Shown: one piece after another, positions 36,446 through 40,876 of the stretch | Layout: every line of letters starts with the position of its first letter | Numbering within the stretch: the first letter of the stretch is position 1 | From: Phycisphaerae bacterium SM23_30 | GTDB lineage: Bacteria > Planctomycetota > Phycisphaerae > Sedimentisphaerales > SM23-30 | DNA: 40,876 nt | Assembly: GCA_001303695.1 (NCBI GenBank) | Contig: LJUC01000003.1 | Coordinates: 1-40,876, forward strand | Direction of reading: 5' to 3' | Position numbers and translations under genes: made by a program | The notes under the pieces: model-generated | Told to the model about the DNA's origin: nothing | The model's input: only the letters and a program-made list of their open reading frames with translations | Databases searched by the model: none

Positions 36446-37486
36446 TTGGATTTTGAAAGACCTTTGGCGGAGCTGGAAAGCCAGATCGCCGAATTGCAGT
36501 CTCTTCAGACTGTTAAAGGGATAGATTATTCACCGGAGATTCGTCGATTACGCAGCAACCTCGTCAAACTTACCGCTAAAATTTACCATAATCTTTCTGC
36601 CTGGGAAACCGTCCAAGTGGCCCGCCATCCTCATCGCCCCATGTTGGCTGATTATCTGGAGATGATGGTCAAAGACTTCACGGAATTGCACGGCGACCGC
36701 CGATTCGGAGACGACCACGCCATAGTGACCGGTTTCGGTCGTATAGGCCGGGAAAAAGTCATGATTGTCGGACATGACAAAGGCAGAAATACCGATGAGA
36801 AAGTGGCTCGTAACTTTGGTTGCGCGCACCCGGAAGGTTATCGTAAGGCCTTGTTGAAAATGAAACTGGCCGAAAAGTTCAACCTGCCCATTGTTTGTTT
36901 GATCGATACGCCCGGGGCCCATCCCGGCATTGGCGCCGAAGAGCGGGGCCAGGCCCAGGCCATCGCCGTCAACCTCATGGAAATGTCACGCCTGCGAACG
37001 CCCATAATTTGCGTGATCATTGGCGAGGGGGGCTCGGGCGGGGCTCTAGGTATTGGTGTCGGAGATCGTTTTGCGGTTATGCAGTTCTCATGGTACGCCG
37101 TCGCCTCCCCGGAAGCCTGTGCCGCCATCCTCTGGAAAAACGGCGACAATGCCCCCCAGGCCGCCGAAGCCTTAAAATTAACCAGTGAAGATTTACTCAA
37201 ATTGAAAGTGGCCGATGATGTAATTCCCGAACCCCTTGGCGGGGCCCACCGTAATCCGCACGAGGCTTCTCGCAACCTCGAAACTTATCTGGTTAAAACC
37301 ATCCGGGACCTACATCGTTTCAAAATGGAAAATTTGCTGGAGAATCGATATCGTAAGCTCCGGTGCATCGGCGAGCTTTCCACCCCCGCGAAAAAATCTG
37401 GGGCCCGACGAGTGATTCGTGTTCCCGGCGGCATCCAGCCCTTGCCTCCCTCAGGAACCCCCCGCCAAAAACCGGTCAAAACCTGA
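36446..37486 (+). CDS. accA: Acetyl-CoA carboxylase carboxyltransferase subunit alpha
   Basis: AccA and AccD transfer the carboxyl group from carboxybiotin to acetyl-CoA, the first step of fatty acid synthesis. The sequence follows AccA throughout: DFERPLAELESQIAEL at the N-terminus, ARHPHRPMLADYLE, CLIDTPGAHPGIGAEERGQ, IIGEGGSGGALGIGVGD, SPEACAAILWK and IPEPLGGAHRNPH. About 25 extra Pro/Arg/Lys-rich residues end the chain. The start used is a TTG at 36446 without a ribosome binding site. Because E. coli AccA begins MSLNFLDFEQP and this frame reads SNNWLDFERP through the TTG, homology seems to continue upstream. The true start may therefore be earlier, perhaps an ATT at 36380/36383. The accD gene is not in the window. 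Confidence 0.93.
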   Translation: MDFERPLAELESQIAELQSLQTVKGIDYSPEIRRLRSNLVKLTAKIYHNLSAWETVQVARHPHRPMLADYLEMMVKDFTELHGDRRFGDDHAIVTGFGRIGREKVMIVGHDKGRNTDEKVARNFGCAHPEGYRKALLKMKLAEKFNLPIVCLIDTPGAHPGIGAEERGQAQAIAVNLMEMSRLRTPIICVIIGEGGSGGALGIGVGDRFAVMQFSWYAVASPEACAAILWKNGDNAPQAAEALKLTSEDLLKLKVADDVIPEPLGGAHRNPHEASRNLETYLVKTIRDLHRFKMENLLENRYRKLRCIGELSTPAKKSGARRVIRVPGGIQPLPPSGTPRQKPVKT

Positions 37487-37727
37487 CCGCAGTAATAACC
37501 TTCTTTTCGACGGGAAAGACAAGCTGACTTTTTTCACAGCCTCGTACTTTAACGCAGAAATACATTTTGAGTTTCAGTATCTGGCTGAAAATGACGTTGG
37601 TAATATGCTTAACTTAAGATTCACCTTAGAAATAATCGACCCGGATGGTACGCGCAGTCCTGTCGATGGCATGGAATGGGAATATGACGAAAATGACGTT
37701 GGTAATATTGAGCCCAAATATTTATAA
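37419..37727 (+). CDS. Possible small ORF overlapping the accA 3' end
   Basis: This 102-codon frame starts at an ATG inside accA and continues through the gap after it. Its second half is acidic and contains ENDVGN twice, encoded by the 20-bp direct repeat described separately. There is no ribosome binding site, no recognised domain, and the opposite strand is also open. It may be a remnant of a longer gene or chance. Confidence 0.18.
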   Translation: MFPAASSPCLPQEPPAKNRSKPDRSNNLLFDGKDKLTFFTASYFNAEIHFEFQYLAENDVGNMLNLRFTLEIIDPDGTRSPVDGMEWEYDENDVGNIEPKYL

Positions 37728-37793
37728 GAATAGAAACACAAAGCAGACCTTAACGGCCCCTGATATATACAATTTCTGTTGCCGGTATCAATT
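37487..37793. other. Convergent intergenic region between accA and the serpin gene
   Basis: This 307-base gap lies between convergent 3' ends. It holds a 20-bp direct repeat (37587 and 37689) and part of a dubious small ORF. I see no hairpin plus T-run terminator. Confidence 0.5.
37587..37708. repeat. Exact 20-bp direct repeat, 102 bp apart
   Basis: GAAAATGACGTTGGTAATAT occurs at 37587-37606 and again, without mismatch, at 37689-37708. The 102-bp offset is a multiple of three. The flanks are unrelated, so the repeat ends sharply. Confidence 0.75.
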
Positions 37794-40232
37794 TTAATTC
37801 CCACTTTTTGGTTTAGGCTGAACTTGAATTTCCACAGGATTGCTTGTCATGTGTGCTGTAATTTCTCCTTTTCTTAGCCACTCGTTTGGGTAAAATCTTA
37901 TACGTACTATGTGCTTGCCTGGCGAAAATTGAAGGCGTTCTCCCCATTTTTCTATTATACCTGGTGCGAATTCAGGTTCCTTGCCATCTTTAGGCAGTGC
38001 CCATGAATCTGTCAACTTAATCTCAAGTGCATCGTAAAGCTCATCTCCGGGTTTCAAACTCCAGACAGGAGAATCAATTATCAAAGGTTCTGCCCAGCCA
38101 TACCATTTCCCATCAACCTCAATCTGACAATGAGCTTGTGCCAACGGAACAAAGCTGAATTCATTTTCTCCACGGCTTTTTAAATCCAGAATCAACGTTG
38201 GGGTTTCTGTCAGTTTCCATTCAGATTCAAATGGTCGGAGTCTGCATCGCAATCCCAAAACCATTCCCCCCCAATTACCTGTAACATCCATAACTGGGTA
38301 TAAAGGATGATCGAAATACTGAAATTCCAAGCTTGTTTTACGCGCGGTGACCTTAGTGAGGATTTGCCAAGACTCGTTCGATTTGAGAAGGATCATGCGC
38401 ACAAGATAATGATCCACGATATCGGTGTCATTAAAGACGTGCTTTTCTTTACAGTTCAGCGTGGCGACATCCTCAGCGATATCAATCTGCGTGTCATATA
38501 TTTTGGACTCACGGTAGTCACGCCGCCCAAATGTTTCGCGCAAATCTTCCCGAAAGTCCTCGCGCGACTGGGTATGCGGATTTTCACTCTGCCAACAAAG
38601 CATCGCCATCGGATGAAATACCTTATCCAGGAGGCCAAGATCCTCCGCAGGCCACATTCGCTCATACAGCCGGAGCGTCTGGCGAATCGCTTCTTCGTCT
38701 TTATCGTGAGAGGGTGTGATCCTCTTGCTTTGTTCTGCAAGGGCATAAAGAGACGGAATTCTCCTGCTATAGAGCAAAGGATTCCCATTTTCGACCGTAA
38801 CCGGTATAAGAACACATTTATTATCTTTCGTAAAGGCAATTAAGATTTCCACACCTTCTTTCGTTGTGTAAGGGGAAGGAATAACGGGCAACGCTTCCAG
38901 GGTTTTGGGGTACAGGGGATATGTTTTTCCCTGACAGGAAACTTGAGTGGAAATTCTTTCCGGGGGACCGTTTGATCGAATCGGATTTGCTACTCGGCCC
39001 ATGAATAAGATACTGCTGGCGGCGTTGTCGCGGATGAGAAAGACAAACGGGTGATTGGCGTGAAAGACCGAGCCCCCTCTTTTCATAATCACCGCCGTGG
39101 CGGCGGCGGCTTCGGTGCCTTTTTCATTCACTTCGACAAAGGTTTTATGCAACACCTGGGAGATTAATAATCCTCCCGTACCGTCGATACCGGAAAAATC
39201 CGCCGCCGGGGAAAAGGGAAGTTTCATGCCCAGCCCCATTAGTGTTTTTTTTAGTTCATAAGTACCCCAGGTCATTTTAAACTTGGGCAGATAAACCGGC
39301 AATTTTCGCTTCTGCATACCTTTGATCCATTTATCCAGATTTTTAGGGCTTAATATTTTTTCCAAATCCGTCAGACCGTCTATTTGCCGGGGTAAAAGAA
39401 CGATCATGGACAAGGCCCTGGCTTTATAGGGCATCTCCAGAACCTGCACCTGTTCGTCGGCGAAGTGATTAAACTCTCCCGCCATATACATCATCGGCAC
39501 ATCGACTTTTTTATCCGGCGTCACCAAAAAGGGCATATCACGGGTGTTCTTTTCATCAAACTGGATCAGCCAATCGGCTTTGAAATAGACGGCGTTGGTC
39601 AGCACCAATTCGGCCTCATCCAAAGCGCCTCTGGCAATCAGTTCCTTGATTTTATCCAGGGTCTTTTTTTCCACCCAATCGTTGATTATTTGTCGCGCCT
39701 TTTCCGCCTCCGCCCTAAAATCCAACTCTCTCACCTCGGCTTGATAGCATTTGCGGTTAAGAGCAATATATTCCGGCAGGAAATTAGAACCTGTCTGGCC
39801 CCACAAGGCGTTGGCGACGCTTAGCTGATACAGCTTATTCTCCCGGGCCTGATTCAATTGGATCTGCAACTGGGAGAAAGCCTGGTGCTGCCGTTCTTGG
39901 CCCAGGGTAAAATGCAGCACCCGGGCCATTTCTTTTTCGGTATCGGTGCGGGCCCCGGCATAGGTCATTGCCAATGCGGTCGAAATGCTGTAAGGCGAGA
40001 AAAACAAATTGCCGTCGGGCTTCAGGGCGGCGGGGTCTTCTTTCAAACGGGCATACAGATCGAAAGCAAAGGCGTTATTGCCTGCCACTAAAATCTCCAT
40101 ATCGCTCTTTTGCTTTTGGCGCCCGGTTTCTATCTGCTTTAATTTAATCTGCTGCGCCGGGGCTGATGGTAGTACGAATGCTACTGAAATCAACCATCCG
40201 AAATTTAAACATACCTTAAATAAACGACTCAT
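37794..40232 (-). CDS. Secreted serpin fused to an NTF2-like and a beta-rich C-terminal domain
   Basis: Serpins trap serine or cysteine proteases. The 812-residue protein has a signal peptide (1-26, ending APAQQ) and a serpin domain at about 50-420: NLFFSPYSISTALAMTYAGA, LVLTNAVYFKADW, the inhibitory hinge EKGTEAAAATA (E370 to A380) and FHANHPFVFLIRD followed by SILFMGRVANP. The Ala-rich hinge is the sign of an inhibitory serpin. The exposed loop to FHANHPF is short (nine residues, VIMKRGGSV), with K384 and R385 as candidate P1 residues, which would suit trypsin-like targets. Residues 507-620 resemble an NTF2/SnoaL-like domain (EEAIRQTLRLYERMW...). Residues 630-812 form a beta-rich region of unknown type. 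Bacterial serpins are normally about 400 residues. GGAGGT precedes the ATG. Confidence 0.85.
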   Translation of the reverse strand: MSRLFKVCLNFGWLISVAFVLPSAPAQQIKLKQIETGRQKQKSDMEILVAGNNAFAFDLYARLKEDPAALKPDGNLFFSPYSISTALAMTYAGARTDTEKEMARVLHFTLGQERQHQAFSQLQIQLNQARENKLYQLSVANALWGQTGSNFLPEYIALNRKCYQAEVRELDFRAEAEKARQIINDWVEKKTLDKIKELIARGALDEAELVLTNAVYFKADWLIQFDEKNTRDMPFLVTPDKKVDVPMMYMAGEFNHFADEQVQVLEMPYKARALSMIVLLPRQIDGLTDLEKILSPKNLDKWIKGMQKRKLPVYLPKFKMTWGTYELKKTLMGLGMKLPFSPAADFSGIDGTGGLLISQVLHKTFVEVNEKGTEAAAATAVIMKRGGSVFHANHPFVFLIRDNAASSILFMGRVANPIRSNGPPERISTQVSCQGKTYPLYPKTLEALPVIPSPYTTKEGVEILIAFTKDNKCVLIPVTVENGNPLLYSRRIPSLYALAEQSKRITPSHDKDEEAIRQTLRLYERMWPAEDLGLLDKVFHPMAMLCWQSENPHTQSREDFREDLRETFGRRDYRESKIYDTQIDIAEDVATLNCKEKHVFNDTDIVDHYLVRMILLKSNESWQILTKVTARKTSLEFQYFDHPLYPVMDVTGNWGGMVLGLRCRLRPFESEWKLTETPTLILDLKSRGENEFSFVPLAQAHCQIEVDGKWYGWAEPLIIDSPVWSLKPGDELYDALEIKLTDSWALPKDGKEPEFAPGIIEKWGERLQFSPGKHIVRIRFYPNEWLRKGEITAHMTSNPVEIQVQPKPKSGN

Positions 40233-40308
40233 TTCATTACCTCCAAACAGAGTATCTCCGGGTTATATTGCGTTTTTGTCATTTAACCACTTATGGGCCT
40301 GATAAAGT

Positions 40309-40876
40309 TTATCTGATCACCTCACTTTGGCGGGTGCCGTGATAGGTGGTCAGGGTGTATTCAAACTGTTTTGACGAGCGGGCGGCGAGCTCCAGGGTGA
40401 ATTTTACCGACTCCTGATCGACCTTTTCATATTCACCGAAGTCCCCCGTTCTGGTCAGGTTCCAGTAGGGCGTGCCGAAGTGACGCTTGATCTCCACCTT
40501 GATGGGCAGTTCGCGGGTGTTTTTGACGGTTATCTTAAAGGTGCGAATCTCATCCCAGCCGACAATATTGTCATATCGCCAACGATAATTTTCCGTGTGA
40601 TAATCCATCAGCACCGGCTCGGCCACCACATTGCCGATGGGCCCCAGATTCAACTCCACGTCTTCATTGACCGGGATGTATTTGAAGCTTGACTGTCCTT
40701 CATACGAAAGGTGCTGGTTTTCGTCCACGGTGCGATATACTTTCAGCACGCCGCCGGGGATAGGTGTTTCGCCGAGCTTGTGTTCGGCGTCGTTCTTGAA
40801 GCTGAGAAACCGAACCACATTAGCGCCATACATATTTTCATCGTACTTATAAAGGTTTACCACCGGCACCTGGTCC
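40309..40876 (-). CDS. DUF4139-type protein, C-terminal part (cut by right edge)
   Basis: The frame is open from the right edge to a stop at 40309, giving about 189 residues; the apparent GTG start at 40869 is an internal valine codon. The segment RFLSFKNDAEHKLGETPIPGG then LKVYRT, followed by the NEDVELNLGPIGNVVAEP strand, resembles DUF4139, a beta-rich domain found in exported proteins of unknown function. The end (SSKQFEYTLTTYHG) also fits a beta sandwich. The N-terminus lies outside the window. The serpin gene follows 76 bases downstream on the same strand and could share a transcript, although it has its own good ribosome binding site. Confidence 0.65.
   Translation of the reverse strand, partial: DQVPVVNLYKYDENMYGANVVRFLSFKNDAEHKLGETPIPGGVLKVYRTVDENQHLSYEGQSSFKYIPVNEDVELNLGPIGNVVAEPVLMDYHTENYRWRYDNIVGWDEIRTFKITVKNTRELPIKVEIKRHFGTPYWNLTRTGDFGEYEKVDQESVKFTLELAARSSKQFEYTLTTYHGTRQSEVIR

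Follow-up and report, generated by a model that had tools for sequence, protein, structure and literature searches.

A planctomycete serpin with three fused C-terminal modules, and a sigma factor/DUF4139/serpin gene cluster that recurs in its relatives

Serpins trap proteases irreversibly. To our knowledge, the reasons why bacteria keep these one-shot inhibitors, and the ways in which they control them, are poorly known. A C-terminal extension is known from human alpha2-antiplasmin, an inhibitory serpin in which about 50 additional residues aid the encounter with the protease. The bacterial serpins described so far include single-domain proteins (chloropin, miropin and the siropins), for which no sigma/anti-sigma operon is mentioned in the accessible parts of PMC10090351 and PMC8233489, and the cellulosomal dockerin-serpins (C. 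thermocellum PinA, R. flavefaciens Doc-Serpin), where an extra module anchors the serpin to a larger structure (PMC5301203, accessible part). In Bifidobacterium breve, a serpin gene lies beside a protease-inducible two-component system (PMC8012564, in part). Membrane anti-sigma factors retain their sigma factors until they are cleaved (PMC8103513, in part).

We analyzed a window of 40,876 nucleotides, the whole stretch of DNA considered here, from Phycisphaerae bacterium SM23_30 (GCA_001303695.1, contig LJUC01000003.1, positions 1-40,876, forward strand). It encodes an 812-aa protein that consists, in this order, of a signal-peptide-like start, a serpin domain, a module A, an NTF2-like domain and a module B, with about 390 residues following the serpin (Table 1). 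The protein has the fold, the GTEAAAAT hinge and the signal-peptide-like start in common with the single-domain bacterial serpins, but differs from chloropin, miropin and the siropins by its 390-residue tail and shorter reactive loop. Like the dockerin-serpins it is a bacterial serpin with extra module content, but the dockerin is a known docking module, whereas here A, NTF2-like and B stand at the C-terminus. Like alpha2-antiplasmin it is extended C-terminally, but the human extension contains neither NTF2-like nor Ig-like domains. Module B also occurs in planctomycete giant M56/BlaR1-type sensor proteases, whereas the 812-aa protein lacks a peptidase or membrane part.

The genomic setting of such serpins invites two further comparisons. 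As in B. breve, the serpin gene adjoins a membrane signalling system, but that of B. breve is a sensor kinase/regulator pair according to the accessible text, whereas the planctomycete operon has a sigma factor and a zinc-type anti-sigma factor with DUF4139. With RpoE-RseA-DegS and other ECF sigma/ZAS pairs, the operon has in common a protein with sigma-70 regions 2 and 4, a membrane anti-sigma factor and the HxxxCxxC motif. It differs from these systems in that the outer part of the anti-sigma factor is DUF4139 and a serpin is included. No second example of the 812-aa fusion has turned up so far; the gene cluster, by contrast, recurs in relatives. We give an even chance to the reading that the protein is a secreted, inhibitory-type serpin of an envelope-stress operon, with a tail of three borrowed pieces that places or targets the serpin.

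Table 1. Features of the serpin fusion locus, in window coordinates, and of the related operon
Feature	Coordinates	Strand	Basis
Whole serpin fusion ORF, 812 aa	37794..40232	-	ATG start, 0 internal stops
GGAGG, Shine-Dalgarno-like, 7 nt 5' of the ATG	40240..40244	-	Sequence
Signal-peptide-like start, residues 1-27	40152..40232	-	Judged by eye
Serpin domain, residues 51-417	38982..40082	-	Pfam PF00079, 401.8 bits (cut-off 27)
Reactive centre loop region, P15 Gly372 to Phe396, 25 residues	39045..39119	-	Sequence and alignment
Module A, residues ~433-498 (~65 residues)	38739..38936	-	Homology to a planctomycete family of ~370 aa
NTF2-like domain (Lumazine_bd_2, PF12893), residues 512-628	38349..38699	-	Pfam, 28.8 bits (cut-off 22.1)
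Module B, Ig-like beta domain, residues 650-810	37803..38285	-	Homology and structure model
DUF4139-type gene, C-terminal end, cut by contig end	40309..40875	-	77 bases upstream of serpin
Operon order: sigma-70 r2/r4, HxxxCxxC-TM-DUF4139 anti-sigma factor, DUF4139 proteins, serpin, short DUF4139-like protein			
Operon loci: L133, L137, L146, L164 with L239, L169, L179, L188, L198, L202			

A preliminary description of this DNA had placed a single 812-aa frame at 37794-40232, and these coordinates are exact, on the minus strand and free of internal stops. The same description had named a hidden stop or assembly join near residue 430, indicating two separate genes, as the finding that would undo the fusion. 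None was found and two genes are ruled out, as the frame is continuous, while the other frames of the tail region are full of stops (16 and 30 in the other two forward frames, 5, 20 and 17 in the antisense frames). A search of the 812-aa protein against NCBIfam gave no match. The convergent neighbour gene is accA, whose best 8 of 58 other matches all belong to family f1, the host's own, with 70-78% identity. Between accA and the serpin (37486-37794), an ENDVGN motif is repeated in a 102-aa ORF (37419-37727), perhaps a gene remnant.

The serpin domain is full-length, with a PF00079 match that spans profile positions 2-370 of 370, and conserpin is the nearest solved structure by sequence (5cdx, E 3.8e-82). 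The inhibitory hinge is intact, as proposed earlier: EKGTEAAAAT is present, with GTEAAAAT at residues 372-379. When the protein is aligned with 47 relatives, no variation is seen at G372, T373, E374, A375, A378 or T379, and the sequence follows the pattern of an inhibitory hinge (Gly at P15, Thr or Ser at P14, small residues at P12-P9). For P1, the Arg of KRGG is a candidate on sequence grounds, though not a certain one. Between the P15 Gly and the PF motif, the loop of 25 residues is the shortest of 74 measured (74 of the 79 serpins, the remaining 5 falling outside the search pattern), so inhibition may be weak. The other loops have 27-32 residues; the next-shortest, with 27, belong to the operon serpin of genome G074 and to one non-operon serpin. 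The full-length AlphaFold2 model is confident for the serpin only (block pLDDT 81-96 over residues 31-420), except for the loop and its flank (residues 381-400, pLDDT 50 and 74). Besides the fusion, the host genome encodes one further serpin, of the ordinary type and 455 aa long (contig C262).

The tail had been described as an NTF2/SnoaL-like segment plus a beta-rich end. Both parts are borne out, the first by Pfam and the second by a model that is all-beta, but module A, a third piece, had been overlooked. This module shares 42-68% identity with the N-terminal regions of eight planctomycete homologues (about 344-372 aa) and represents only the N-terminal first fifth of its parent family (L057 type), with the conserved C-terminal part absent. 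In two other proteins (L064 and L071), its counterpart sits after HEAT-like repeats, as judged by eye. No Pfam model matches L057, the single family member tested. Module A was modelled with block pLDDT values of 87-94 (tail residues 11-60).

A domain search of the tail, suggested in the preliminary description, detected Lumazine_bd_2 above its cut-off at residues 512-628, and a separate search of the order's genomes scored the same domain at 33.2 bits. DUF4440, SnoaL_3 and SnoaL_4 match these residues as well, below their own cut-offs. The fold of this region was modelled without confidence (pLDDT mostly <60, with 0 homologues in the alignment). Elsewhere in the host genome, on contig C80 (L238 1489-1668), a 64-aa frame matches the end of Lumazine_bd_2 and was taken as a remnant; it overlaps an ORF that by eye resembles a REP-type transposase.

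Module B shares 54% identity with a segment of a 1099-aa protein of G099 and 44% with part of a 2169-aa protein of G069. It also forms small stand-alone proteins of about 165 aa and is repeated in ORFs of 1000-4000 aa. It is present in all 5 of the 5 long ORFs with a Pfam-confirmed M56/BlaR1 domain (L119, L121, L122, L128, L129); another long module B ORF, L120, has no Pfam M56/BlaR1 domain. The model of module B is all-beta (block pLDDT 67-97, mostly >=87) and resembles Ig-like beta sandwiches in the PDB with Z-scores up to 8.3. As none of these matches is outstanding, we did not infer a function from structure. The preliminary description had proposed that the additional domains may serve as an anchor or bind a controlling ligand; inspection of the tail by eye revealed no membrane or sorting signal.

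It had been proposed that the same architecture be sought in other planctomycetes, but no second genome has the fusion. It was absent when the whole protein was compared with 98 genomes and the tail with 148 and 397 genomes (all three sets overlap), and a search of the genome_contigs collection did not reveal it either. At E 0.001, the tail has no matches in the 12 other genomes of the host's family, and Lumazine_bd_2 exceeds its cut-off in only 1 of the 161 genomes of the order, the host genome itself. The GC3 values differ from piece to piece (serpin 0.605, module A 0.421, NTF2-like 0.557, module B 0.335), and the four neighbouring genes have values of 0.55-0.67. Together with the family-typical accA, these observations suggest that the tail is a recent mosaic of horizontally acquired pieces and that the contig itself is correctly placed.

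A mosaic of this kind could also be a non-functional passenger, made of gene scraps recombined in frame onto a working serpin that alone matters. The shifts in GC3 against the neighbouring genes, the lack of tail relatives in the family, the rarity of Lumazine_bd_2 in the order, the truncation of module A and the presence of the architecture in one genome only would all fit. However, 392 codons have stayed open although the other frames are rich in stops, and modules A (up to 68% identity) and B (54%) remain family-like and are modelled as compact, whereas a tail long free of selection would decay. A young and still intact passenger would be compatible with the open frame and the compact folds. 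Overall, we regard the passenger explanation as rather unlikely.

The same data bear on an artefact of assembly or binning in a metagenome-derived draft. The host genome is in 295 contigs (78.5% complete, 1.86% contamination), the fusion is known in a single copy, and its pieces look foreign in composition. Against this, three joints would all need the same frame and strand, the convergent accA clearly belongs to the host's own family, and the serpin together with the DUF4139 piece upstream matches a conserved operon, so that an artefact appears highly improbable.

We also asked how common serpin fusions are in the order. PF00079 was found in 75 of the 161 genomes, at 87 places, and 79 of these neighbourhoods were examined; the other 8 are contig-edge fragments and were excluded (G007 x2, G153, G085, G118:C90, G118:C201, G028, G089). 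Bacterial serpins had been called usually single-domain, which agrees with the 72 of 79 frames that are shorter than 600 aa (lengths taken stop to stop and thus upper bounds). Yet fusions recur, since the remaining seven frames are the 812-aa fusion, four ankyrin-serpins, a PQQ-propeller fusion and an N-terminal fusion in G074. Among the 79 serpins, the 812-aa protein is the only one with a long C-terminal tail (395 residues, versus 91 for the next).

The ankyrin-serpins come from four genomes and have a lipoprotein-like start (L205 5602-8772, L183 625-3237, L203 7089-9278, L204 7621-10470). Their serpins form one well-supported clade, and the ankyrin repeats, Pfam-confirmed in one of them, lie in front. 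The PQQ-propeller and serpin share one 1488-residue open frame in a genome of the host's own family (L052 1172-5635). At L217 (3648-6158), a chagasin-type inhibitor (PF09394, 77.1 bits) is fused to a serpin, with a stretch between them that looks Kazal-like by eye; this single chain may thus inhibit proteases of more than one class. At L216 (2692-6501), a repeated stretch follows the serpin and gives a weak STN (secretin/TonB N-terminus) match below the cut-off. Outside the order, serpins were found in 104 of 397 genomes, and at 20 loci there with long serpin frames we found no DUF4139-type gene, module A or module B.

The preliminary description had overlooked the DUF4139 gene that adjoins the fusion gene, and this neighbour turned out to be characteristic of a group of serpins. 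We defined the DUF4139-type family by a profile made from related sequences, with PF13598 as its anchor, and found 18 of the 79 serpin ORFs (17 of 78 loci, in 17 genomes) beside DUF4139-type genes, on the same strand every time. The nearest gap was below 60 bases, or the genes overlapped, for 17 of the 18; for the second serpin of G069, another serpin intervenes. A chance adjacency of this extent has P <1e-20 in a rough binomial estimate (2-8 DUF4139 genes per genome) that treats related serpins as independent. Nine anti-sigma/DUF4139 proteins combine HxxxCxxC, which we take to be the zinc-type (ZAS) anti-sigma motif, with one strong hydrophobic segment. A sigma-70 gene lies directly upstream of the anti-sigma/DUF4139 gene in all 9 cases (the ninth in G078), and Pfam confirms sigma regions 2 and 4 in 8 of these 9. 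At non-operon serpin loci, sigma matches were found in 2 of 61 cases, both weak and non-adjacent. Six operon serpin loci have no intact sigma/anti-sigma pair nearby (L171, L196, L197, L199-L201).

On a tree of 78 of the 79 serpins (L188 was left out because its domain is split), the operon label changes 6 times, versus 15.7 times in shuffles (0 of 500 as low). The operon serpins are thus clustered but not a single clade, and the backbone is without resolution; the tree does not settle the position of the 812-aa serpin. A search of titles and abstract starts, in a collection with few subscription papers, retrieved no apparent description of a serpin/DUF4139 sigma operon. The operon is probably a more general discovery than the fusion protein.

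Fusion of operon serpins to other modules is not confined to the host genome. Between the anti-sigma gene and the serpins of G069 lies a gene for a 537-aa protein. A relative of this protein, with 46% identity over 392 columns, makes up the N-terminal region of the serpin in G074. A domain that is separate in one operon is thus fused to the serpin in another, which indicates that envelope modules have been fused to operon serpins elsewhere too. We had considered the G074 N-terminal domain as "M56-type", but dropped this label because it matches only G074 and G069 operon proteins and none of the M56 proteins searched.

In the window itself, the operon is incomplete. The fragment at 40309-40875 is 62% identical to a secreted DUF4139 paralogue of G083 and was assigned via relatives, as PF13598 gives no score on it. 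We abandoned the idea that it represents the domain of the anti-sigma protein itself, because the identity is about 62% to secreted paralogues versus 48-53% to anti-sigma ones. Another contig of the host genome (C76) ends in a cut anti-sigma N-terminus, which by eye has the motif HLEECSSC and one hydrophobic stretch, with a sigma gene preceding. With the G074 anti-sigma/DUF4139 protein as query, C76 and the fusion-gene contig were the only two matches in the host genome. The C76 pair and the serpin/DUF4139 contig would thus belong to one operon, across an assembly gap.

The single ORF, its domain content, the hinge, the conservation of the operon in relatives and the relatives of the modules are observed, whereas secretion, inhibition, the P1 residue, control by the sigma factor and any role of the tail are inferred. 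In the secreted stress serpin reading, the operon would encode a sigma factor, a membrane anti-sigma factor whose outer part is a DUF4139 domain, additional DUF4139 proteins and the serpin, and in the host genome three borrowed extracytoplasmic pieces (A, NTF2-like, B) would have been added to the C-terminus of the serpin. Envelope or protease stress would lead the sigma factor to raise the serpin level, and the serpin would serve as a suicide inhibitor of a serine protease, probably a trypsin-like one. The tail may fix the inhibitor to an envelope partner or surface, or recruit a given protease, and the serpin would in this way guard the envelope. This reading is supported by the serpin score and consensus hinge, the same-strand adjacency of serpins and DUF4139 genes, the sigma gene upstream of all nine anti-sigma/DUF4139 genes, the C76 pair, the G074 fusion and the occurrence of module B in the M56/BlaR1 ORFs. 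Counting against this reading are the tail, which is found in no other genome and holds only the first fifth of the module A family, the shortest loop, the C76 link that spans an assembly gap, the silence of PF13598 on the fragment, and the fact that the operon serpins are not one clade.

Alternatively, the serpin could act as a regulator within the sigma circuit, blocking a serine protease that would cleave the DUF4139 anti-sigma factor in its outer part, so that consumption of the serpin frees the sigma factor and the fused domains serve as sensors. The tight order of sigma, anti-sigma/DUF4139, (DUF4139) and serpin genes at 9 loci is consistent with such a role, as are the occurrence of module B in M56/BlaR1-type sensor proteases and the established first cut of anti-sigma proteins by a serine protease (DegS on RseA; PMC8103513, in part). 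Nevertheless, we found no gene for a site-1 protease in the operons, the six loci without an intact sigma/anti-sigma pair nearby do not fit, and the same gene order is explained by a serpin that is an ordinary output (effector) of the sigma factor, so that we consider a regulatory serpin improbable. In a more specific and similarly improbable form, the one-shot serpin would measure extracellular protease in competition with the DUF4139 anti-sigma factor, the fused modules (A/NTF2-like/B, or the G074 domain) would tune where and when this happens, and serpin depletion would switch sigma on. If true, such a protease-measuring serpin circuit would be a new kind of bacterial signalling circuit.

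The 812-aa protein is a case of a serpin acquiring three extracytoplasmic modules, one of them common to M56/BlaR1-type sensor proteases. As a single copy in a draft genome, the fusion is a curiosity, and the operon is the part that generalises. With a conserved operon surrounding some planctomycete serpins, the purpose of these serpins and their control both become directly testable, as expression and protease targets can be studied at a single locus.
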